Virus record (IMG/VR): IMGVR_UViG_3300011116_000690
Location: 1-39,914 of that record
Origin: a virus
DNA: 39,914 nucleotides
Reading direction: 5' to 3' (one strand)
Made by a program: the position numbers and the translations under genes
Shown here: piece by piece, positions 11 to 38,602 of the stretch
How the letters are laid out: every line of letters starts with the position of its first letter
Position numbering within the stretch: position 1 is the first letter of the stretch
Notes under the pieces: generated by a model
Seen by the model: the letters and a program-made list of their open reading frames with translations, nothing else
Told to the model about the DNA's origin: nothing
The model's database searches: none

Positions 11-697
11 TTATTCCGCACTCTTTGCAACCTTGTCTTTGGCTATTTCACCTGCAAGCCATTGCACACCCTTAGCGGTGAATCTGGCTGTGTTGAATGC
101 ATGCCCGTTGTCTGCTGTGCCAGCCTTAACAGAAAAGCGCCCAGTGGTGATATGGTCAGCGTATGGCACCCATTCACCGCCCAGCTTGTACATGATCTTC
201 TTGTCGTCCAGGAAAGCGCGCAGATCAGGCTCCTTGATGTTGAGCAGCTTTGCTACTTGCCTGAATCCCTTTAATCCGGTGGAATCAACATAGCGGTCAA
301 CAAAGTCAATGGCAGGCTTTGCGGCCTCCAGTTGTGCTATGGCGGCTTGCTTAGATTCGACAGCATCAGCCCATGCTCTCGCAGCCGCTACAGGATCATT
401 AAAGTTGGGAAGTTGTACTGCTAAACCAGATTCAAGCTCTTGCCAGCGATCGACAAGGCGTGCGGTAAATGTAGGGGAAAGTTGCGCAACAATAACGTAA
501 GTGTCACGCTTTCCGATAAGATAGACTTTTTCAGTAATGCCATTTGCAGATTTATCGCCATCCCTCAATGCGGGTTGGGAAATTGCTCCTGATTTTACAA
601 GACGATCAATAGATGTCTTTACATGATCGTGCCTGGATTCGACTAAATCCGCTATTTCGCGGCTTGTCATGGTTGGGTTCGCTACTGTGAGGTTCAT
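11..697 (-). CDS. Rha/KilAC-type phage antirepressor, haplotype 1 copy
   Basis: 228 aa. Residues about 1-90 look like a phage Rha (pRha) DNA-binding domain: a start-proximal MTSREIADL helix and a region ending in VDRWQELE. Residues about 122-228 are a KilAC domain (QLEAAKPAIDFVDRYVDST, then KLLNIKEPDLRAFL). Proteins with this layout are phage antirepressors or regulators of lytic growth. The SD AAAGG lies 7 bases before the ATG. It is the last gene of the leftward early operon, and its leader carries the double hairpin at 718-821. A second copy at 37919-38602 has an almost identical C-terminus and a different N-terminus. Assignment to the antirepressor class is firm; its repressor target is not known. 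Confidence 0.85.
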   Translation of the reverse strand: MNLTVANPTMTSREIADLVESRHDHVKTSIDRLVKSGAISQPALRDGDKSANGITEKVYLIGKRDTYVIVAQLSPTFTARLVDRWQELESGLAVQLPNFNDPVAAARAWADAVESKQAAIAQLEAAKPAIDFVDRYVDSTGLKGFRQVAKLLNIKEPDLRAFLDDKKIMYKLGGEWVPYADHITTGRFSVKAGTADNGHAFNTARFTAKGVQWLAGEIAKDKVAKSAE

Positions 698-1720: not shown

Positions 1721-1888
1721 TTAAGCTTTCGGCCATTCCATTTTTTCGACAAGTCGATGAAACGCAAAAGCACTGCGCGGCAAATGTGCATGTACTGTCT
1801 TGTCATGCTCACGATAATGCGATCCACAAGCAAAGCCAGCATACCTGCCTTCGCGCTTGTTGCGGGATATTAGGGGGCGAGTGTTCAT
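1721..1888 (-). CDS. Small conserved basic phage protein, haplotype 1 copy
   Basis: 55 aa, unknown function: M-N-T-R then a basic stretch ISRNKREGRYAGFACGSHYR and a C-terminal amphipathic helix. It is real because an equal-length homologue with mostly conservative differences is encoded at 39604-39771, so the reading frame is under selection. Its ATG overlaps the TGA of the 130-aa gene (ATGA, 1885-1888), indicating translational coupling in the leftward operon. Single Cys and three His could bind metal, but the pattern is not diagnostic. Confidence 0.7.
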   Translation of the reverse strand: MNTRPLISRNKREGRYAGFACGSHYREHDKTVHAHLPRSAFAFHRLVEKMEWPKA

Positions 1889-2277
1889 GATTTCACCTCA
1901 GCAGGGCGCTCGACCAGGCTATCACGCCAGGAGATGCCGGTGGTGTCGATGTTCAAAAAGCAGCTAATCTCTGCTGCCGAATATCCAGCACATGTCTTTG
2001 GATTTCCTGTATAGACATAAACAGCGCCATCACAAGTCATCATCGCAAATTTAAAATCTTTGAGGATATGCTCCCAGGGTATGGCTAGGCGCTTGATGGG
2101 CTTGGTGCGGTAGATTGAATCTATCAAAATGTGTGTTTTAATATGCATTTCTCGATAGTCGCCGTGCATAAAAGTTTCAGCATTGCAGTCCATGATGGCG
2201 TTCAGCAAAATATGCTGTTCTTCCCGCGAGCAGTCTTTGAATGGGAGTTTGGCTTCGTTCAGAAATTCTTGTGTCAT
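1885..2277 (-). CDS. Phage protein of unknown function (130 aa)
   Basis: Not recognised. Mixed alpha/beta composition with no signal peptide or membrane segment; a central DFKFAMMTCDGAVYVYTGNPKTC region and a C-terminal SWRDSLVERP. It overlaps both neighbours by ATGA junctions (2274-2277 upstream, 1885-1888 downstream), so it belongs to the leftward early operon. The last 133 bases of the window (39782-39914) encode the C-terminus of a near-identical copy, which is one of the observations tying the two window ends together. Confidence 0.7.
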   Translation of the reverse strand: MTQEFLNEAKLPFKDCSREEQHILLNAIMDCNAETFMHGDYREMHIKTHILIDSIYRTKPIKRLAIPWEHILKDFKFAMMTCDGAVYVYTGNPKTCAGYSAAEISCFLNIDTTGISWRDSLVERPAEVKS

Positions 2278-2513
2278 GATGTCATATTCCTTTCTTTTGT
2301 GAACATGAAGCGCAGCCAGTCTTGTGCACCTCCTTTGGATAAGTGACCCTGCTCATGCTTGTCTGTTATCCAGCCTGGGCACCATTCGGCATAGCCACTG
2401 CGGATCATGTGATTGCCCATTTGCTCAACAGTTACGGTATTGTTCCCGTACAATGTCAAGAAGGCGCGTATTGCTTGGTTCTCGCCGTCTTCGTCTATGA
2501 TTTTCTCAGCCAT
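2274..2513 (-). CDS. Small phage protein, unknown function (79 aa)
   Basis: 79 aa. The C-terminal half (GYAEWCPGWITDKHEQGHLSK with GAQDWLRFMF) resembles a small-protein family common in early regions of temperate phages, from memory and without an assigned role. No membrane segment or catalytic motif. Coupled to the 130-aa gene by an ATGA overlap, and follows NinG by 3 bases. SD is weak (AGGTAAATT before the ATG). Confidence 0.65.
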   Translation of the reverse strand: MAEKIIDEDGENQAIRAFLTLYGNNTVTVEQMGNHMIRSGYAEWCPGWITDKHEQGHLSKGGAQDWLRFMFTKERNMTS

Positions 2514-2516
2514 AAT

Positions 2517-3137
2517 TTACCTTTCAAGTCTTCGTGTTTTCTTTGAAAATATCCGGCGCATGCGCTCCAGGTATTCAACCGTGTAAGTTCTGGACTTAGG
2601 CGCATTGTCCAAAAAATCTACTTTCTCTTGCCCGATCAGCTTAATGAGTGCTGGCCTGAATTCGTGAATATTCCCTCCTTTTGCAACGTTGCAAGAATAG
2701 CAACATGGCCAGATGTTCAAAAGGTTGAATCTAAGAAACGAATTGCTACCACGGCTCTTGAAGTGCGATGCATTACGCACACCATCGTAAGCAGACTTGC
2801 CGCAGCATATACACGGCATGTCACGCCACTTCGTTAATACATACTTGTTAATTATGCGCTGAGTAATATCCAGGTGGTCTTTATTGGTCTTTAAAGCCTC
2901 CTTGCGCCGCTTATCCTCTGCACGCTCTTTACGTGCCTTGGCTGCTGCAATACGGGCCTTATCACGGATGCCAAGCTCTACTGAGCATTCAACAGAGCAA
3001 GCCTTCGCTGGTCGATCCTTGCCAAGTGGCTCAAACCGCTGTTTGCAGATCGCGCAACGTGGTAATTGTTTCTTCGGCTCGGCACCAAACGGTTTCCGCT
3101 TGAATGCCGATCGCTTAAGTTCTGTTGTCTGCTTCAA
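2517..3137 (-). CDS. ninG: NinG (Rap) recombination endonuclease family protein
   Basis: 206 aa, the usual length. The N-terminus has a zinc-ribbon pattern (CAICKQRF, then CSVECSVE about 20 residues later), followed by a long basic coiled helix of K/R/A residues. The C-terminal half carries the NinG/HNH-like core: CICCGKSAYDG, NASHFKSRGSN, and CCYSCNVAKGGN. Lambda NinG (Rap) is a structure-specific nuclease that cuts recombination intermediates in Red-dependent recombination; here Bet and a YqaJ nuclease are encoded at 7566-8946. ATGA overlap with the upstream gene (3134-3137). Confidence 0.88.
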   Translation of the reverse strand: MKQTTELKRSAFKRKPFGAEPKKQLPRCAICKQRFEPLGKDRPAKACSVECSVELGIRDKARIAAAKARKERAEDKRRKEALKTNKDHLDITQRIINKYVLTKWRDMPCICCGKSAYDGVRNASHFKSRGSNSFLRFNLLNIWPCCYSCNVAKGGNIHEFRPALIKLIGQEKVDFLDNAPKSRTYTVEYLERMRRIFSKKTRRLER

Positions 3138-3328
3138 GTCGCATCCTCATTTAGCTTAATTTTTACTGGGCCGGTATATTTCAAGCAGCCAAACCTTTTC
3201 TTTGGGAATTTCTTTGACTCTCGATTATATGCAGTTATACATTGCTCCTCGTTTTTAAATTCTTCAAGCCTGGGCATTGTGCTAATGTCGTTACCTATGA
3301 CCAAAACAAGCCAATATATTGTGATCAT
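3134..3328 (-). CDS. Small membrane-anchored protein, unknown function
   Basis: 64 aa if started at the ATG at 3328, which has SD AAGGA 6 bases upstream; the frame is open further but without a better start. N-terminal hydrophobic segment ITIYWLVLVIG (residues 2-12) looks like an uncleaved signal anchor, followed by a soluble, Lys/Glu-rich tail with two Cys (EEQCITAY, RFGCLKY). Located upstream of and overlapping NinG. Function unknown. Confidence 0.5.
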   Translation of the reverse strand: MITIYWLVLVIGNDISTMPRLEEFKNEEQCITAYNRESKKFPKKRFGCLKYTGPVKIKLNEDAT

Positions 3329-5463: not shown

Positions 5464-5642
5464 GGTTTATCTTCATCTCCAATTTGATAATTCAAAGCCA
5501 CGCAATCATCGCATGTATAGCTAACTAATTTGACCAATCTTTCCCATGCTTCTTGTGCATTTCTACGATCTGCACCACGATAATCCATCGCCAAAATGTG
5601 TAATTGCTCAAGCAAATTGTCATTCAGTTTTTGTTCTCTCAT
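5460..5642 (-). CDS. Small acidic phage protein, unknown function
   Basis: 60 aa, acidic, predicted helical (LLEQLHILAMDYRGADRRNAQEAWERLVKLV) with a CDDC-type pair (TCDDCVAL). Overlaps the repressor gene by ATGA (5639-5642), so it is the second gene after the early leftward promoter. No recognised family. Confidence 0.6.
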   Translation of the reverse strand: MREQKLNDNLLEQLHILAMDYRGADRRNAQEAWERLVKLVSYTCDDCVALNYQIGDEDKP

Positions 5643-5815
5643 TTCTCTCTCCGTTTAAAGTAAGCGTGTAATGTGTTGATTGTTGTCGGGCGCGGTATTC
5701 CTTTGCCGTTCAATATGTTTCTGATTGTGCTTAAGCTGACCTCTGTTTTAAACGTTACTTCTTTGTGTAAGCTTCTATCAGCTAGATGCATTTTTACGTA
5801 TTCAATTTTGTCCAT
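5639..5815 (-). CDS. Small HTH repressor (Cro/CI-like), first gene of the leftward operon
   Basis: 58 aa from the ATG at 5815, chosen for an excellent SD (AAGGAG, 5 bases upstream). Residues about 15-50 read as a helix-turn-helix: KEVTFKTEVSLSTIRNILNGKG, with the typical SLSTIRNIL recognition helix. It lacks the C-terminal oligomerisation/cleavage domain of lambda CI, so is Cro-sized. It is transcribed divergently from the 5963 gene, with a good promoter (-35 at 5859-5864, -10 at 5837-5842) and an inverted repeat overlapping the -10, consistent with autoregulation. Probably the switch repressor targeted by the antirepressors; that link is inference. Confidence 0.7.
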   Translation of the reverse strand: MDKIEYVKMHLADRSLHKEVTFKTEVSLSTIRNILNGKGIPRPTTINTLHAYFKRREK

Positions 5816-5836
5816 ATTGGCTCCTTTTCTGATATA

Positions 5837-5864
5837 AGCATACCACAAATATGCCATTATTCAA
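5837..5864 (-). promoter_or_regulatory. Leftward early promoter
   Basis: Minus strand: -35 TTGAAT (5859-5864), 16-nt spacer, -10 TATGCT (5837-5842), a close sigma70 match. It would start transcription about 15 bases before the HTH gene's start codon, leaving room for its SD. Confidence 0.6.
5838..5854. promoter_or_regulatory. Putative operator overlapping the leftward -10
   Basis: Inverted repeat gcata (5838-5842) / tatgc (5850-5854) with a 7-nt centre, lying across the -10 and spacer of the leftward promoter. A second short palindrome, ttac-tt-gtaa (5878-5887), lies between the two divergent promoters. Both are candidate binding sites for the small HTH protein. Confidence 0.4.
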
Positions 5865-5900
5865 GACCTAAAATAATTTACTTGTAACGCAGATTTGTGC

Positions 5901-5928
5901 TTGACTTTAGATTTTGAAGGTGTAAGAT
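5901..5928 (+). promoter_or_regulatory. Rightward early promoter
   Basis: -35 TTGACT (5901-5906), 16-nt spacer, -10 TAAGAT (5923-5928). Start of transcription would be near 5935, downstream of the ATG at 5927; this rules out 5927 as the usual start of the next gene and favours 5963 or 5966. Confidence 0.6.
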
Positions 5929-5962
5929 GATATCCAGCAGCAGCAAACAACAAACGGAGAAA

Positions 5963-6148
5963 ATGATGGATAAGCCAAAAGTAAAGCTCACTCAAGAAGC
6001 GCAGGACATGATTGATATGTTCAGCGAGCTGGATGAGGAACAGTGCAACGGTTTAGCCAAACTTTTGAATACAAAAGGCGTAGCTTTTGCCATTAAATTC
6101 AAAGAAAACATGCAAGAATGGGTTGATGCAAAACCAAGCGAAGATTAA
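5963..6148 (+). CDS. Small first gene of the rightward operon, unknown function
   Basis: 61 aa from 5963 (or 60 from 5966). SD CGGAG precedes the twin ATGs, and the promoter at 5901-5928 would not include the more upstream ATG at 5927. Sequence is charged and helical (KVKLTQEAQDMIDMFSELDEEQCNGLAKLLNTKG). No clear HTH, but its place immediately downstream of the rightward switch promoter is where phages encode a Cro- or CII-type regulator. It is followed by a long structured noncoding region rather than another gene. Confidence 0.55.
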   Translation: MMDKPKVKLTQEAQDMIDMFSELDEEQCNGLAKLLNTKGVAFAIKFKENMQEWVDAKPSED

Positions 6149-6285
6149 AGCAGTAAGGGGATAGGCCTACCTGAGTGAATTGGTGCAGCGGTTTTGGGCC
6201 GCGATAAATATACCGACCGAAGCTTTGCCGGTGATAGCCGCTCGCTCTGAGTTACGAGCCGTAACCTGGTCGCGTAAGTGCCAGG

Positions 6286-6357
6286 ACTTAATCACAATCA
6301 TCCTACTCTTGTTACGGCAAATTTCATGAGGGCTTTACAGGATGATTATGATTAAGT
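6286..6357. repeat. Near-perfect 19-bp inverted repeat
   Basis: Arms 6286-6304 and 6339-6357 match at 18 of 19 positions, the odd pair being A-C on one strand and G-T (wobble) on the other; loop 34 nt. Such a long stem is far beyond chance for a gap of this size. It may be an RNA stem or the core of an origin or protein-binding site. Confidence 0.75.
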
Positions 6358-6459
6358 TTGTTCAGATCAATTTTATACGGAGGCTATTTTCGGCAACTAG
6401 CTACCACTGCGGGGATGATCGCAGAAATACTTGAGAGATTAAAAAGGTAGAAATTAGGT

Positions 6460-6491
6460 AACAAGGCGGCAATTCACCGCTGCCTTGTTTT
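6460..6491 (+). terminator. Putative intrinsic terminator in the noncoding region
   Basis: Arms aacaaggcggc (6460-6470) and gctgccttgtt (6479-6489) form an 11-bp stem with one G-U, 8-nt loop, followed by a short T-run (GTTTTA). It would end a transcript from the rightward promoter after about 550 nt, unless antiterminated. Confidence 0.5.
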
Positions 6492-6512
6492 AGCCTGACT
6501 GGTTCCCAGTCA

Positions 6513-6625
6513 CCAGATAGAATCGGGTTGTACTTGGAGTTGGCAGGGCGACAGCTATGTCCTGATTGAAGTGAGTGGCGATCACAGTATAGGGTTCGAT
6601 TCCCTTCCAGCCTGCTTCTATCTGG
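6513..6625 (+). ncRNA. tRNA-like structured RNA candidate
   Basis: A perfect 10-bp stem (6513-6522 with 6616-6625) encloses elements arranged like a cloverleaf: gcagg (6543-6547) pairs with cctgc (6611-6615), then hairpins gaca-gcta-tgtc (6550-6561), gtga-gtggcga-tcac (6571-6585, 7-nt loop with T at position 2) and aggg-ttcgatt-ccct (6591-6605), the last looking just like a tRNA T-arm. It lacks a D-loop GG and a full 7-bp acceptor, so it is not a normal tRNA. Could be a tRNA mimic, a degenerate tRNA or an mRNA leader structure. Confidence 0.4.
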
Positions 6626-6651
6626 TAGCAACAACTTAACAGGGGATAGAG

Positions 6652-6873
6652 ATGAAAGGAATTGAATGTCCATCATGCGGCGCTGAACTTGAGCATGTTG
6701 ATATGTTCGGTAGATTTTTAGGATTTGGTGACGGCAAAGTAAATGGTGATATTTACCGTTGCCCTGTTGGTCGCGAAGAAGGTGAGTGTGACTCGGCAGT
6801 TTTCCATGTTGCTGGCAGTTGGTATGCATATCGCGAAGGCGATACATCACTGAAAGAGGGATATCCATGCTAA
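6652..6873 (+). CDS. Small zinc-ribbon protein
   Basis: 73 aa, SD AGGGGATAGAG before the ATG. An N-terminal CPSCGAEL pair (C6, C9) and a later RCPVGREEGECDS pair make a zinc-ribbon-like protein, similar to Lar-like restriction-alleviation proteins in general layout (short, CPxCG start, DSAVFHVAGSW). Lar assignment is only a possibility. First gene after the structured noncoding region; its stop overlaps the next start. Confidence 0.55.
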   Translation: MKGIECPSCGAELEHVDMFGRFLGFGDGKVNGDIYRCPVGREEGECDSAVFHVAGSWYAYREGDTSLKEGYPC

Positions 6874-7094
6874 AAATGTATCCAAAGCTAGCGCTGCTAA
6901 CCGTCTTCGCCCTATTCTGCTTTGTCAGCAAAATGGATTACCTGGATCAGGTCAAAGAAGAACAGCACACGAAAACTGTGCACAAGAAAGCAGACAAGCT
7001 TGCGCAATTGCAAAAGATGCGGGAGGCGGCAGAGTTTAATCGGCTGGCTGCTGAAGCTGAACGGATGACAGGAATGAAAGCGGGGATGAAATGA
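6867..7094 (+). CDS. Small membrane-anchored protein with charged helix
   Basis: 75 aa from the ATG at 6867 (SD GAGGG 6 bases upstream, start inside the end of the previous gene). A hydrophobic segment (LALLTVFALFCFVS, residues about 8-21) then a long charged helix (DQVKEEQHTKTVHKKADKLAQLQKMREAAEFNRLA). Likely a single-pass inner-membrane protein with a cytoplasmic or periplasmic coiled coil; role unknown. Confidence 0.55.
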   Translation: MLKMYPKLALLTVFALFCFVSKMDYLDQVKEEQHTKTVHKKADKLAQLQKMREAAEFNRLAAEAERMTGMKAGMK

Positions 7095-7456
7095 GCGAAA
7101 CACTACAAGACGAATTGCGTCACCGTTGCCAGCACAGCACGTCATCGCGCGATATTCAGCTTATGGCAAATGCTGCTGATCGGATAGATGAATTGGTGTG
7201 CAAACTTGCCGAGACTCAGCTTTCAGAATACGACGGAAGCTGCTTGAAGGCTGGGCAATACATACAGCAGGCTTGCAGCGAATTGCCTGATGGATACGAG
7301 ATCGAAATATGTCTTGAAAAGGATGCTGGCACTGTTTATTTGCTGGATAAATACAGTGACAGAATTGAACTTTGTGGCGATCAAGGCAGCTTTGCAGCTG
7401 ACATTTTTGAAGCTATTGAAGTAGCCAAAGAACATGCAGCAGAGCAAGCAAAATGA
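7091..7456 (+). CDS. Early phage protein, related at N-terminus to the 9925 gene
   Basis: 121 aa. The first 40 residues (MSETLQDELRH ... ANAADRIDELVCKLAE) parallel the product of 9925-10335 (MSEQTLQEKL ... ASADRIDELERQLAK), suggesting a shared N-terminal helical module with different C-terminal parts. C-terminal half is mixed alpha/beta. Coupled by ATGA on both sides (7091-7094, 7453-7456). No assigned function. Confidence 0.55.
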   Translation: MSETLQDELRHRCQHSTSSRDIQLMANAADRIDELVCKLAETQLSEYDGSCLKAGQYIQQACSELPDGYEIEICLEKDAGTVYLLDKYSDRIELCGDQGSFAADIFEAIEVAKEHAAEQAK

Positions 7457-7557
7457 AACTCCCACTCCTAACCCGCTGGCACTGGCTGCAAATCGATGTA
7501 CAGTATTTATGCCGCAAGCTGCGTCGGCGCGTGTTGCAGTGGATTATTAAACGATAG
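7453..7557 (+). CDS. 34-aa basic, Trp-rich small protein
   Basis: Short frame starting inside the stop of the previous gene (ATGA, 7453-7456) and ending 8 bases before Bet. Product MKLPLLTRWHWLQIDVQYL, then a strongly basic amphipathic tail (CRKLRRRVLQWIIKR). The overlap and the lack of any other gene in this gap support translation. Function unknown; might be a membrane-active or nucleic-acid-binding peptide. Confidence 0.45.
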   Translation: MKLPLLTRWHWLQIDVQYLCRKLRRRVLQWIIKR

Positions 7558-7565
7558 GGGAATGT

Positions 7566-8312
7566 ATGAGTACAGCATTAGTATCACTCACGAGCAAATT
7601 AGCTCAAACTTTCAATCTTGGCGATGGTCAAGACTTGATGCCAACACTGAAGGCCACAGCATTTAAAGGACAGGTATCAGATGCGCAAATGACTGCTTTG
7701 CTGATCGTTGCCAATCAATACGGCCTGAATCCGTGGACTCGTGAAATTTATGCCTTTCCTGACCAGAATAACGGCATTGTCCCGGTCGTTGGCGTTGATG
7801 GCTGGAGCCGGATTATCAACTCACACAGCCAGTTTGATGGCATGGAGTTTGACCAAGACGAAGAAAAATGCACATGCAAGATTTATCGCAAAGACCGTAG
7901 TCATGCCACATCTGTGACCGAGTACATGAGCGAATGCAGGCGCGAAGTAAAGCCCTGGAAATCGCACCCAAAACGCATGTTGCGTCACAAGGCCATGATT
8001 CAGTGTGCACGCTTGGCCTTCGGCTTTGTCGGCATCTATGAGCAAGACGAGGCCGAGCGCATCATGGAAGTTGACGCGCCAGCAGTTGAGCAGATAGATA
8101 TCACGCCGCTGGTCAATGCAGCAAGGCAGACAACGACCGACGAGGAAGCACTAAAATTCTGGAAAGAAAACAATGCTCAGTTGAATAAGTTTCCGGCAGC
8201 ACATGCGCAATTGAAGTCCGAAGTTATGGCGCACCGCGAATATCTGAAAACTCAGTCCGCAAAGACAATTGAACAGCCACCGGAAGAAGGCAAAGAATAT
8301 GTACCAGCATAG
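7566..8312 (+). CDS. bet: Phage recombination protein Bet (RecT/Red-beta superfamily ssDNA annealing protein)
   Basis: 248 aa. Core features of the Bet family: residues 30-60 ATAFKGQVSDAQMTALLIVANQYGLNPWT, then REIYAFP, GIVPVVGVDGWSRIIN and HPKRMLRHKAMIQCARLAFGF. Bet anneals complementary single strands and works with an exonuclease, here the YqaJ protein whose gene overlaps its 3' end. It drives recombination during replication and is a reason such phages are mosaic. SD AGGGG before the ATG. High confidence. Confidence 0.93.
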   Translation: MSTALVSLTSKLAQTFNLGDGQDLMPTLKATAFKGQVSDAQMTALLIVANQYGLNPWTREIYAFPDQNNGIVPVVGVDGWSRIINSHSQFDGMEFDQDEEKCTCKIYRKDRSHATSVTEYMSECRREVKPWKSHPKRMLRHKAMIQCARLAFGFVGIYEQDEAERIMEVDAPAVEQIDITPLVNAARQTTTDEEALKFWKENNAQLNKFPAAHAQLKSEVMAHREYLKTQSAKTIEQPPEEGKEYVPA

Positions 8313-8946
8313 GCCATTCACAATCATCGATACTGCGCAGAGGTCGCCAGAATGGTTTGCAGCCCGCCTGGCGCGTGTAACGGCAAGCAACGCTAAGTTG
8401 ATACTCATGGGAGATACAACAGCAGGGCGCAGTGGTTACGTGCTTCAGCTTGCCCTTGAGTCGCTAACTGGCAAAAGCGTTGAGGAAGAAATATTTGTTA
8501 GCAAAGAAATGCAGCGCGGCATTGATAAGGAACCTCTGGCACGCATGCAGGCCGAGGCTGGCGGTCACTTCATACGTGAGACAGGATTTCTTGCGCATGA
8601 CACTATGATGATAGGCGCGTCGCTGGATGGTGATGAAGATGATTTTGAAACCATTTGGGAGTTTAAATGCCCAAAATCAAATACGCATTTGAAGTACCTG
8701 GAATCAAATGGCGACTTGCTGCAAAAGGATTACCAACCGCAACTGATGCACGGTCTGTACGTCACTGGCGCAAAGCAGGCAATCATAGGCAGCTTTGATG
8801 ATCGTTTGCCTGAAGGCTTGCAGTGGGTTCAGAAAGAAATAAAAGTGCAAGACTTGCCTATGGCTGAATATGAGAATTCACTTATGAAATTTCTTAAAGA
8901 CGTTCAGGCAATGAAAGATAAACTTCAAGCCCTGCAATTGAGGTAG
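8299..8946 (+). CDS. YqaJ-family viral recombinase exonuclease (Red-alpha counterpart)
   Basis: 215 aa from the ATG at 8299 (GAAGG upstream, start inside the Bet gene). Pattern of the YqaJ/lambda exonuclease fold: RSPEWFAARLARVTAS near the start, then GASLDG (D110) and WEFKCPK (E121, K123), forming the PD-(D/E)xK active site, and DYQPQLMHGLYVTG. It should chew 5' ends of double-stranded DNA to give substrate for Bet. Overlap with bet and matching order confirm the pair. Confidence 0.9.
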   Translation: MYQHRPFTIIDTAQRSPEWFAARLARVTASNAKLILMGDTTAGRSGYVLQLALESLTGKSVEEEIFVSKEMQRGIDKEPLARMQAEAGGHFIRETGFLAHDTMMIGASLDGDEDDFETIWEFKCPKSNTHLKYLESNGDLLQKDYQPQLMHGLYVTGAKQAIIGSFDDRLPEGLQWVQKEIKVQDLPMAEYENSLMKFLKDVQAMKDKLQALQLR

Positions 8947-8948
8947 CC

Positions 8949-9227
8949 ATGGCACAAAAAGGCGAATACAAACCACCCATTGAAAGCTCATATGCTGCGT
9001 ATCTTAGGGCTATGGCTTTGCTTGATGAAGTCAACTGCGGATTCGCCTTATACATGGTTTCTGGACGCATAAGGTGTTCTCGTGAATCATCGCATGGATA
9101 TCACATGCGCGTTAATAAATTCAAAGATGCCTTAATCGGTGTCTATACAGAAGACGTCGATACGCGCCTGATAAAGCAGGACATTGACGCTTACTACGAA
9201 ATATTCAAACCAACCCAAAGCGCATAA
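8949..9227 (+). CDS. Phage protein of unknown function downstream of YqaJ
   Basis: 92 aa starting 3 bases after the exonuclease. Alpha/beta composition, contains EVNCGFALYMVSGRIRC and a C-terminal acidic DIDAYYEIFK. Not recognised. Position suggests co-expression with the recombination pair. An 82-base gap follows, containing a short hairpin (aaagc-tgc-gcttt, 9239-9251) with a T-rich tail that might be a weak terminator. Confidence 0.55.
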   Translation: MAQKGEYKPPIESSYAAYLRAMALLDEVNCGFALYMVSGRIRCSRESSHGYHMRVNKFKDALIGVYTEDVDTRLIKQDIDAYYEIFKPTQSA

Positions 9228-9309
9228 CTTTAAAGTATAAAGCTGCGCTTTTATTTTCGGCTAGATGTTATATTGTACGTATGTAGCTTTTATATAACAG
9301 GAGAAAGAA

Positions 9310-9510
9310 ATGGTCAATAATTGTAGTGGTATTTTTGGCAAATGGTTTGGGCATAATTACGAGTCAAGATTTAGTATTGGCCCTGGCGGCTTCACTGGAA
9401 TGGAAGGGAGTTTGCATGCTTGCCTCACAATGATGGAAGAAGCAAAATCCAAAACCTATGAATGCGACATTTGCACCCGATGCGGATCAAAAATTGAAAG
9501 GAACAAATAA
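9310..9510 (+). CDS. Small Cys-containing phage protein
   Basis: 66 aa, SD AGGAG 7 bases before the ATG. Gly-rich N-terminus and a C-terminal zinc-knuckle-like CDICTRCGSK. Unknown function. It restarts the operon after an AT-rich gap (9228-9309) with TATATT and TATAAC stretches that may be promoter -10 elements, but no good -35 is positioned for either. Confidence 0.5.
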   Translation: MVNNCSGIFGKWFGHNYESRFSIGPGGFTGMEGSLHACLTMMEEAKSKTYECDICTRCGSKIERNK

Positions 9511-9512
9511 CC

Positions 9513-9722
9513 ATGTCAAACAAACTTCTGAACAAAACAATGGAAATGCTTGAACTGAAAAATGACCGTCACCTGGCTGCAACTGTTGGCGTTGCGCCTC
9601 CCGTGATATCGAAAATCCGGCATGGTCATTTAAAAGTCGGCGCAGTGCTGATACTTCGCATCCACAAGCTGACCAATATTCCAGTGGTGGATATTGAGGC
9701 GTTGATAGGGGATAAGTCATGA
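9513..9722 (+). CDS. HTH regulator, XRE/Cro-like
   Basis: 69 aa. A full helix-turn-helix of the lambda-repressor type: MEMLELKNDRHLAATVGVAPPVISKIRHGHLKVGAVLILRIHKLT (residues 10-55 region), i.e. helix 2 HLAATVG and recognition helix APPVISKIRHG. No further domain. It lies in the rightward operon, where a Cro- or CII-like second regulator would sit, and overlaps the next gene by ATGA. Its operator is not known. Confidence 0.75.
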   Translation: MSNKLLNKTMEMLELKNDRHLAATVGVAPPVISKIRHGHLKVGAVLILRIHKLTNIPVVDIEALIGDKS

Positions 9723-9928
9723 TTGCAATTGGACTGGTGCTAGCCATCGTGTTTTTTGCTATGCACAAAGTAGCAAGAAAACTTGCTATTCAATTTCTTT
9801 TTACATGCGAAACTGACATGTACAATTTCTGGGAAAGCGCTCAATTCAACCTTTTGCTTTTATCGTTCGCATCCGGCCTTGTTGCGCTTGTCGGCTTCGG
9901 TATATTTCTTTGGAGAGTGATGCCATGA
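9719..9928 (+). CDS. Small two-span membrane protein
   Basis: 69 aa with two hydrophobic segments: IGLVLAIVFFAMHKVA (about 3-18) and FNLLLLSFASGLVALVGFGIFLW (about 43-65). No charge pattern diagnostic of a holin and it is in the early operon, so superinfection exclusion or membrane modification is as plausible. Coupled by ATGA on both sides. Confidence 0.55.
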   Translation: MIAIGLVLAIVFFAMHKVARKLAIQFLFTCETDMYNFWESAQFNLLLLSFASGLVALVGFGIFLWRVMP

Positions 9929-10335
9929 GCGAACAAACATTACAGGAAAAGCTACGCTTCATTGTCGCCAAATACGAAACTCCTGTCAGGCAAGGTGACG
10001 CAATGATTGCATCAGCCGACCGAATAGACGAGCTTGAGCGCCAGCTTGCCAAATCAGAAGTCTTGAATTTAGCGATAAATAGCCAGCTTATGTCTGCGAT
10101 AGATGAAAAATCGCAACTTGTTAGCCAGCTTGCCGAAGCGAAGAAAGACCAGGAGCGGCTGGAATGGATTATGAATAACAGTGTGTATGTGGCCTATTCA
10201 ATGGATGGTGAAGTTTGTCATGTGCGTATTACTGCTGATCGTGGCGAGGATGAATATCCGGCAGAAGGCTATCCATTGAAAGTATATGATGACCGTCGCC
10301 AAGCCATTGACTCAGCAATGAAGGTGAAGCCATGA
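9925..10335 (+). CDS. Early phage protein with coiled coil, paralogous N-terminus to the 7091 gene
   Basis: 136 aa from the ATG at 9925 (overlaps preceding TGA). Helical N-terminus shared in pattern with the 7091-7456 product, then a coiled coil (DELERQLAKSEVLNLAINSQ) and a C-terminal alpha/beta part (DQERLEWIMNNSVYVAYSMDG) resembling the tail of Ea22-like early proteins. Function unknown. Confidence 0.55.
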   Translation: MSEQTLQEKLRFIVAKYETPVRQGDAMIASADRIDELERQLAKSEVLNLAINSQLMSAIDEKSQLVSQLAEAKKDQERLEWIMNNSVYVAYSMDGEVCHVRITADRGEDEYPAEGYPLKVYDDRRQAIDSAMKVKP

Positions 10336-11027
10336 AAAAAGACCAAATACGCGAGATATTTCTACGCAACGGCTTCACGATCAAAGAAGGTCAGACTGAT
10401 CTAAAAGACTACGTTTATTCTGCTGCGAATGAATTGCTTGCTGCTCAACTGGAGAAAGCGCAAGAGCCACACAGTTACTGGACTGAATGGGCGGGACATG
10501 AAGATGCATTCATGGGTGAGCATGTCTTTGAATTGCCAGAAGACACAGACGGCTTTGATAATATTATTCCGCTCTACACATCCCCGCCAGAAGTAGCAGA
10601 GCTACAGAAGCAAATAACGATTTTGCGGAAGCAGGTGAACTCGTACAAAACTCTTGTATGGTCTAAGGAGCAATTGCAACTGGCAGCAGCAGAAGACAAG
10701 CGCACTGTTAAATCCATGACTAGTGACAATGTCGGGCTGGCGCAGTGCAATTCAATCTTAACTGAAGAAAGCGACGCATTACAGAAGCAGGTGCAGGCAC
10801 TTACCGAGAGATACGATTGCAACACAGCATTGATGCATGCGCGCACTGCCAAGATGAATGCATACTATGCACAGGTGCAGGCACTGCAAGCCGACAATGA
10901 GAAGCTACGCGACAAAGCCAACCACGCCGAGAAATGGCAAGGCATAGCACTGGCAAAACATGGCGACGGGCGGACGGAACAGCAGTTACGCGAAGATATT
11001 ATTGCAGAATTAAAAGATAAATCATGA
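10332..11027 (+). CDS. Early phage protein with long C-terminal coiled coil
   Basis: 231 aa. N-terminus (MKKDQIREIFLRNGFTIKEG, then TDLKDYVYSAANELL) is a motif I recall from many early phage proteins; a middle PLYTSPPE segment is typical of Ea22/DUF551-like mosaics; the rest is coiled coil (VAELQKQITILRKQVN onward). Such proteins are built of exchangeable modules and have no known reaction. Last full gene of the rightward operon, ATGA overlap at its start; it faces the convergent lysis genes. Confidence 0.55.
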   Translation: MKKDQIREIFLRNGFTIKEGQTDLKDYVYSAANELLAAQLEKAQEPHSYWTEWAGHEDAFMGEHVFELPEDTDGFDNIIPLYTSPPEVAELQKQITILRKQVNSYKTLVWSKEQLQLAAAEDKRTVKSMTSDNVGLAQCNSILTEESDALQKQVQALTERYDCNTALMHARTAKMNAYYAQVQALQADNEKLRDKANHAEKWQGIALAKHGDGRTEQQLREDIIAELKDKS

Positions 11028-34039: not shown

Positions 34040-34119
34040 TTGGTCTGGGCAGCAGGATTTGAACCTGCGACATCTCGCTTCCAAGGCGAGGACTCTAAAC
34101 CGGACTGAGCTACACCCAG
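34040..34119 (-). tRNA. tRNA-Pro(TGG), CCA encoded
   Basis: A full cloverleaf on the minus strand: acceptor CTGGGTG/TGCCCAG with C1-G72, D-arm GCTC/GAGT, anticodon arm CTCGC-CTTGGAA-GCGAG (anticodon TGG, proline) and T-arm GCAGG-TTCAAAT-CCTGC; discriminator A and genome-encoded CCA (34040-34042). C1-G72 is a bacterial proline-tRNA identity feature. It lies between regulatory and packaging genes, so it would be co-transcribed with late genes. Confidence 0.93.
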
Positions 34120-37918: not shown

Positions 37919-38602
37919 TTATTCCGCACTCTTTGCAACCTTGTCTTTGGCTATTTCACCTGCAAGCCATTGCACACCCTTAGCGGTGAATCTGGCTGTG
38001 TTGAATGCATGCCCGTTGTCTGCTGTGCCAGCCTTCACAGAAAAGCGCCCAGCGGCGATATGGTCAGCATATGGAACCCATTCACCGCCAAGCTTATACA
38101 TGATCTTCTTGTCGTCCAGGAAAGCGCGCAAAACAGGCTCCTTGATATTCAGCAGCTTTGCTACTTGCCTGAAGCCTTTTAATCCGGTGGAGTCAACATA
38201 GCGATCAACAAAGTCAATGGCAGGCTTTGCGGCCTCCAGTTGCGCATTCTGCGCGTCAATTGTCTCTTGCTGTGCCAATGCCAGCCTGAGCGCTTCTGTA
38301 AAGGTGGTAGGGGTCTTGAATTGCGGTGCGGCTTCCAGCTCAAGCCAGCGATCAATGATGCGCTTACGCATAACTACGTTGTAGCCAGATACCAATGTAA
38401 GCGTCAAATCTTTGGGAAGCACAAACTCAGAATAGGTTTGCTTGTTTTGGGGGTGTATCCAGTTTTGGAGATACCCTTGTCTGGGAATTTCTAACTCTGA
38501 CATCATGACTTCAATGTCACGGATGACATGGGCATGTTCTTTGCCAGTCAAGCCAGCTATCTCACGACTTGTCATCGTGGATTCTTTTATTGCGAGATTC
38601 AT
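37919..38602 (-). CDS. Rha/KilAC-type antirepressor, haplotype 2 copy
   Basis: 227 aa. Residues 1-90 are a typical Rha domain (MTSREIAGLTGKEHAHVIRD, then GYLQNWIHPQNKQTYSEF, LPKDLTLTLVSGYNVVMRKR and DRWLELEAA), closer to the standard Rha pattern than copy 1. From about residue 121 on (QLEAAKPAIDFVDRYVDST) the KilAC half is nearly identical to the 11-697 protein. Thus N-terminus swapped, C-terminus shared. Expressed from a leader containing the junction at 38622-38699; SD GAGGT. Confidence 0.88.
   Translation of the reverse strand: MNLAIKESTMTSREIAGLTGKEHAHVIRDIEVMMSELEIPRQGYLQNWIHPQNKQTYSEFVLPKDLTLTLVSGYNVVMRKRIIDRWLELEAAPQFKTPTTFTEALRLALAQQETIDAQNAQLEAAKPAIDFVDRYVDSTGLKGFRQVAKLLNIKEPVLRAFLDDKKIMYKLGGEWVPYADHIAAGRFSVKAGTADNGHAFNTARFTAKGVQWLAGEIAKDKVAKSAE

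Follow-up and report, generated by a model that had tools for sequence, protein, structure and literature searches.

A covarying 29-nt hairpin in phage early-operon leaders, possibly an antitermination-like RNA element

The nut sites of phage lambda consist of boxA and boxB, work with the N protein and are found in both early operons. To our knowledge very few phage RNAs are known that alter host transcription on their own. The put RNA of phage HK022 is an RNA-only antitermination element made up of two stem-loops, with sites in both early operons (PMC9378689). The DNA analysed here, referred to as the window, is one virus record of 39,914 nucleotides (39.9 kb). An earlier note, made from the sequence alone, had pointed to a half-kilobase stretch without a gene (6149-6651) and proposed a regulatory RNA, an antitermination (put/nut-like) region or a replication origin. 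The position of this stretch fits a put/nut-like early-operon element, but homology to HK022 put is absent: neither the hairpin motif described below nor its covariance model R1 gave a match in HK022 25000-40751, which harbours the early, replication and gpQ genes.

The rightward early operon and its leader

Nearly all genes of the window are read leftward. The leftward set comprises a repressor-like gene (5639-5857), followed by NinG, antirepressors, an O-like replication gene, terminase and structural genes. Two related antirepressor (Ant) genes are located at 11-697 (-) and 37919-38602 (-), and the phage encodes a tRNA-Pro (TGG) at 34041-34119 (-), just upstream of the terminase gene. A single short rightward operon (5963-11027) contains RecT/Bet and a RecE-like exonuclease. 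This layout indicates a lambdoid-type arrangement with a pL-like operon pointing right, of which the gene-free region would be the leader. The operon has the following features:

5901-5928, + strand: putative promoter of sigma-70 type, TTGACT-16-TAAGAT, for the rightward early operon (consensus match only, 9/12)
5963-6148, + strand: first small rightward gene, 61 aa from ATG 5963 (from sequence)
6652-6873, + strand: next gene, encoding a 73-aa zinc-ribbon-like protein, 73 % identical to L184:4001-4225
7566-8946, + strand: recombination genes of this operon, encoding a RecT/Bet-like annealing protein and a RecE-like exonuclease (PHROGs, 3.5e-88 and 9.3e-24)

The promoter reported earlier at 5901-5928 does exist as a site, but such matches are no commoner in the window than in shuffled sequences. 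If this promoter is used, ATG 5963 and not 5927 is the start of the first gene, since 5927 overlaps the -10 box. The 61-aa product is acidic; searches for family matches of the 5963-6148 gene, and for relatives of a 73-aa version of its ORF, found none.

The region 6149-6651 is indeed free of genes, the + strand having no ORF of at least 50 aa. An antisense ORF over the region (TTG start, 6401-6931) is not credible: it has no family match and is antiparallel to the conserved gene at 6652-6873. The + strand has a predicted MFE of -173.8; shuffles gave -149.0 +/- 6.0 (z -4.15), and none of 100 folded as well. When compared, with GC adjustment, to every 500-nt window of the contig, the + strand lies at -2.6 sd and the - strand at -0.2. 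The inverted repeats are real, but seven pairs of at least 8 nt were counted instead of 'at least eight'. The near-perfect 19-nt repeat was recovered at 6286-6304/6339-6357 (95 % complementarity), as was a terminator-like hairpin near 6458-6491, and a second 19-nt pair is present at 6512-6530/6608-6626 (84 % complementarity). Direct searches of phages and plasmids revealed no DNA homology of the whole region, and Rfam 15 gave nothing for it at gathering score nor at E values up to 10; at 5850-6800 only mir-like and other chance matches appeared, far under cut-off. Matches of 15-17 nt in portal relatives were attributed to chance and sit in an orthologous gene. Conserved pairing in relatives, a check proposed in the earlier note, was found for a 29-nt hairpin inside the region, but not for the whole half kilobase.

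The cumulative GC skew reaches a minimum near 5.75-6.0 kb, which might suggest that the region is the replication origin of the phage. However, this turn merely tracks gene orientation: it coincides with the orientation change, and the skew turns again at the convergent point at ~11 kb. Direct repeats of at least 10 nt are absent from the region, a replication-O-like gene is located elsewhere (36.8-37.3 kb), and the covarying stem described below as well as the strand-asymmetric folding indicate RNA. The proposal of an origin at this position thus found no support, and we consider it highly improbable.

The 29-nt hairpin and its relatives

The hairpin had not been singled out in the earlier note and came from comparison with relatives. 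The 73 % identical relative of the 73-aa neighbour gene led to L184, an Undibacterium prophage with its own copy of the element, the record of which matches Undibacterium crateris (L193). L184 harbours its own gene-poor, structured stretch of 1.1 kb, in which one 25-nt segment is common with the window (TAACCTGGYCGSGTAAGNGYCAGGA). A pattern derived from this segment yielded further phage sites, including L188 and the cultured Bordetella phage PHB04. The three hairpin copies of L188 differ in stem sequence yet still pair. In the window the element is:

6258-6286, + strand: conserved covarying hairpin with CGTAA, a variable 5-bp stem CCTGG/CCAGG, a bulged T and a CGC-GTAA-GTG cap (from covariation)

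Its general pattern is CGTAA-[5-6 bp variable stem]-bulged Y-CGC-GTAA-GTG-[stem']. In an alignment of 24 distinct sequences 96.5 % of the stem cells are paired, and 37 cells carry double changes compared to 9.3 +/- 2.5 in shuffles. None of 500 shuffles matched the observed covariation, and all slid controls were far lower. The stem-free pattern CGTAAN{4,7}GYCGCGTAAGTGC was found in 38 viral stretches, nearly all with a stem of at least 4 bp, whereas a control with a changed loop (GTAA to GVAA) returned 15 stretches, 14 of these without a 4-bp stem. Covariation and the loop-changed control together indicate that what is conserved is pairing in the stem and sequence in the loop. Variants with a GAAA, GCAA or GGAA loop in viral contigs were almost all chance matches without stems. 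The exception to the GTAA loop is a convincing GCAA form in prophage L264, another Undibacterium-family genome.

The covariance model R1 scores window positions 6254-6288 at 47.1 bits, the window itself being in the training set. Run unfiltered over the whole window, it reported only one site above 10.7 bits and none in the leftward operon. Outside the training set R1 found copies in L071 and L063, two of 80 loci that had been selected by RecT alone. In each case the hairpin precedes recT on the same strand, and in L063 a long hairpin follows it as in the window. R1 also detected extra copies in L219 and L216 and the GCAA-loop form of L264. More than 30 phage contigs carry the hairpin, as do Bordetella phage PHB04 and two Undibacterium-family genomes; most of these records are uncultured fragments, and several sites are close relatives of one another. 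Usually there is one copy per phage record; L188 and L219 have three each. None of 49 portal-related phage records has the hairpin, which indicates that it travels with some early regions and not with phage lineage. A search of 369 genomes of the class and of plasmids gave nothing new, and matches in Spirosoma (L194) and in L185, L187 and L189 were taken as chance or coding. No matching family is present in Rfam 15 and no such hairpin was found in the open-access literature, which is weak evidence of novelty; motif-like strings sought in papers revealed nothing new. The 29-nt hairpin is probably an RNA family not described before.

ORF contexts around the sites, called mechanically, place the hairpin usually between genes. 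The commonest families downstream on the same strand are RecE, Sak4, exonuclease, Erf, SSB and RecT/Bet, which are unrelated as proteins and share one role in recombination. Upstream, on the opposite strand, NinB and NinG lead the families of a divergent operon. Several sites do not adjoin recombination genes. Judged from these contexts, the conserved feature is the place in the operon and not a particular neighbour.

Bulged hairpins with a fixed loop typically bind proteins, as does the MS2 operator. At several sites, for example in L203, L207, L210 and L220, the hairpin is located right after a stop codon, 8-20 nt before the next ribosome-binding site, a position from which it could govern the fate of mRNA after transcription, be it by RNase processing, by protection of 3' ends or by control of translation of the next gene. 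However, at other sites tmRNA or tRNA-like RNAs follow directly in place of a gene. As the next gene differs between phages, regulation of a single product is unlikely, and a post-transcriptional role as a whole is regarded as unlikely.

Structures around the hairpin

Several predicted structures surround the hairpin in the window:

6240-6259, + strand: hairpin with a 5-bp stem, GCTCG-N10-CGAGC, immediately before the conserved element (from folding)
6286-6357, + strand: long hairpin with 19-nt arms of 95 % complementarity, starting flush with the end of the conserved hairpin (fold z -4.91)
6458-6494, + strand: hairpin AACAAGGCGGC/GCTGCCTTGTT resembling an intrinsic terminator, with a T-rich tail after it (z -5.12)
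6512-6626, + strand: tRNA-like domain with an 11-bp outer stem ACCAGATAGAA/TTCTATCTGGT, an acceptor-like 7-bp stem and TA at positions 8-9

The upstream 5-bp hairpin has counterparts in several relatives, with no conservation of sequence. A long stem of unrelated sequence begins 0-8 nt after the hairpin at 12 of 37 sites, compared to 14 of 444 random positions; many of the sites without it are near-identical, hence not independent. The 19-bp repeat of the window is thereby explained as one of the long near-perfect hairpins that follow about one third of the sites. Strong intrinsic terminators within 300 nt downstream were found at 9 of 34 sites in sense, at 0 of 34 in antisense and in 10 of 165 random stretches. 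This is the stricter count; an earlier loose one (15/33 sites against 84/256 random) was uninformative. Five loci (L197, L199, L214, L221 and L228) have a promoter-like site 50-200 nt after the hairpin and then a terminator hairpin of 17-18 bp with differing stem sequence; these are candidate small RNA genes.

The tRNA-like domain has a T-arm TAGGGTTCGATTCCCTT and lacks a free CCA end. With a lowered threshold ARAGORN scores it at 91.1 (6525-6615), a value reached by 1 of ~400 shuffles; within the window only the real tRNA-Pro (117.5) scores higher. A functional tRNA gene is not apparent at 6525-6615: the score is below the normal ARAGORN threshold, Rfam shows no tRNA match and a free acceptor 3' end is missing. 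The + strand of the window has no T-arm match other than that at 6591-6605, the exact string of which was not found in viral contigs. T-arm-like elements occur within 600 nt of the hairpin at 9 of 35 sites and in 52 of 600 random segments. As the samples are small and partly related, the enrichments of long stems, terminators and T-arms are only suggestive. The canonical T-arm (AGGGTTCGATTCCCT, 6591-6605) could also mean that the tRNA-like 3' part is an attP site that includes the terminal part of a host tRNA gene. However, AGGGTTCGATTCCCTTCCAGCC is unmatched at up to 1 mismatch across 399 genomes from the order to which Undibacterium belongs, which may not be the order of the host, and no integrase is present among the scanned window proteins, making an attP site scarcely conceivable.

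Kilobase-scale gene-poor stretches built of repeated units are present in L188 (reverse strand, ~1740-3220) and L184 (5285-6400). The units contain the conserved hairpin, long closing stems, a hairpin NNGCA-RRCTGA-TGCNN and a T-arm-like element GCTGGTATCAAGCCCAGC, and the stretches possibly represent a new large phage RNA. PHB04 harbours an unannotated permuted tmRNA (L195:3093-3464; NC_047861 46061-46432; Rfam RF04321) with tag ANDDYIRAAA. It follows a tRNA Met-Asn-Pro array, has only a small hypothetical CDS annotated nearby, and is preceded ~4 kb upstream by a gene for RtcB. L219, a 4.3-kb uncultured phage contig, carries a tmRNA-like gene (~1600-2015, tag ANDDSYRPQLRIAA) beside its hairpin copies. 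Rfam 15 found nothing apart from tRNA and tmRNA in the stretches of the window, L184 and L195.

The hairpin might be one module of a large ncRNA with which the phage acts in trans, possibly a tRNA-mimicking decoy or scaffold. Such an RNA would combine conserved hairpins with long closing stems and tRNA-like domains and would span ~6160-6630 in the window. The excess of long stems and of T-arm-like elements near the hairpin speaks for this, as do the ARAGORN score of the window's tRNA-like domain against shuffles, the structured stretches of ~1 kb with repeated units in L184 and L188, and the tmRNA genes beside the hairpin in PHB04 (permuted, by Rfam) and L219. However, about two thirds of the sites lack the long stem, several sites lie just before a ribosome-binding site and leave no space for a large RNA, and between members only the 29-nt hairpin aligns. 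The array copies of L188 and L219 and the flush long stems keep this explanation alive, although it is rather doubtful.

A possible antitermination-like role

The hairpin at 6258-6286 is located after a promoter-like site and before RecT/RecE on the same strand, likewise in many relatives. A role at the level of the operon fits best, and of such roles antitermination is the simplest: the hairpin has a fixed loop, lies in the leader and has untranslated structured RNA as well as terminators ahead of it. The hairpin is therefore tentatively interpreted, at somewhat less than even confidence and from sequence comparison, as a cis-acting early-operon RNA that may work like nut and put sites and is not homologous to HK022 put. 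Region 6149-6651 would be the untranslated leader of the rightward pL-like operon, with the 29-nt cis-acting hairpin as its core. Once transcribed, the hairpin (GUAA loop, bulged pyrimidine, CGUAA flank and variable stem) would serve as a binding site for RNA polymerase or for a protein of host or phage origin. Such binding could make the elongating polymerase resist pausing or termination, so that it would read through the hairpins at 6286-6357 and 6458-6494 into the recombination genes. Against antitermination, these phages usually have one site, in contrast to lambda and HK022 with sites in each early operon, a clear terminator is found just downstream at only about a quarter of the sites, and the three-copy arrays of L188 and L219 would suit a repeated structural module.

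In a broader reading, phages would place the GUAA hairpin before recombination operons and also before structured or tRNA-like RNA arrays, including permuted tmRNA. It is conceivable, though we hold it to be somewhat unlikely, that phages of Betaproteobacteria, and probably of other hosts, have an RNA family that modifies host RNA polymerase by means of a minimal bulged GUAA hairpin, as a third antitermination signal beside N/nut and put. With strong covariation across dozens of differing early regions, the 29-nt hairpin is a small and easily tested candidate, either for a novel antitermination signal or for a structural module of phage ncRNA not seen before. In the annotation of uncultured phages it also serves to mark the early recombination operon.

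Comparison with described phage RNAs

GOLLD and ROOL (Rfam) are likewise structured phage stretches of half a kilobase to a kilobase, sometimes with tRNA-like parts; unlike these, the members described here have a common 29-nt hairpin and not a large common fold. Permuted tmRNA (RF04321) adjoins the hairpin in PHB04, whereas the window has no tmRNA and its tRNA-like domain, in contrast to permuted tmRNA, is closed by an 11-bp outer stem and has no CCA end.

The likeness to lambda nut consists of a variable stem, a fixed GNRA-like loop and a location in the leader of a recombination operon, before terminators. Unlike nut, the hairpin has a bulged pyrimidine and a CGC/GTG cap, the loop is GTAA almost without exception, and the divergent operon of the window has no second site. 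The conserved letters upstream of the hairpin, read from the alignment by eye, are CGTAA and differ from the boxA consensus. The small genes beside the hairpin have no family match, and no arginine-rich N-like protein was recognised there. Compared to HK022 put, the hairpin is usually single and its stem sequence is free. Both are small structured early-operon RNAs of lambdoid-type phages with bulged hairpins, and put acts in cis on elongating polymerase, as is proposed for the hairpin described here.
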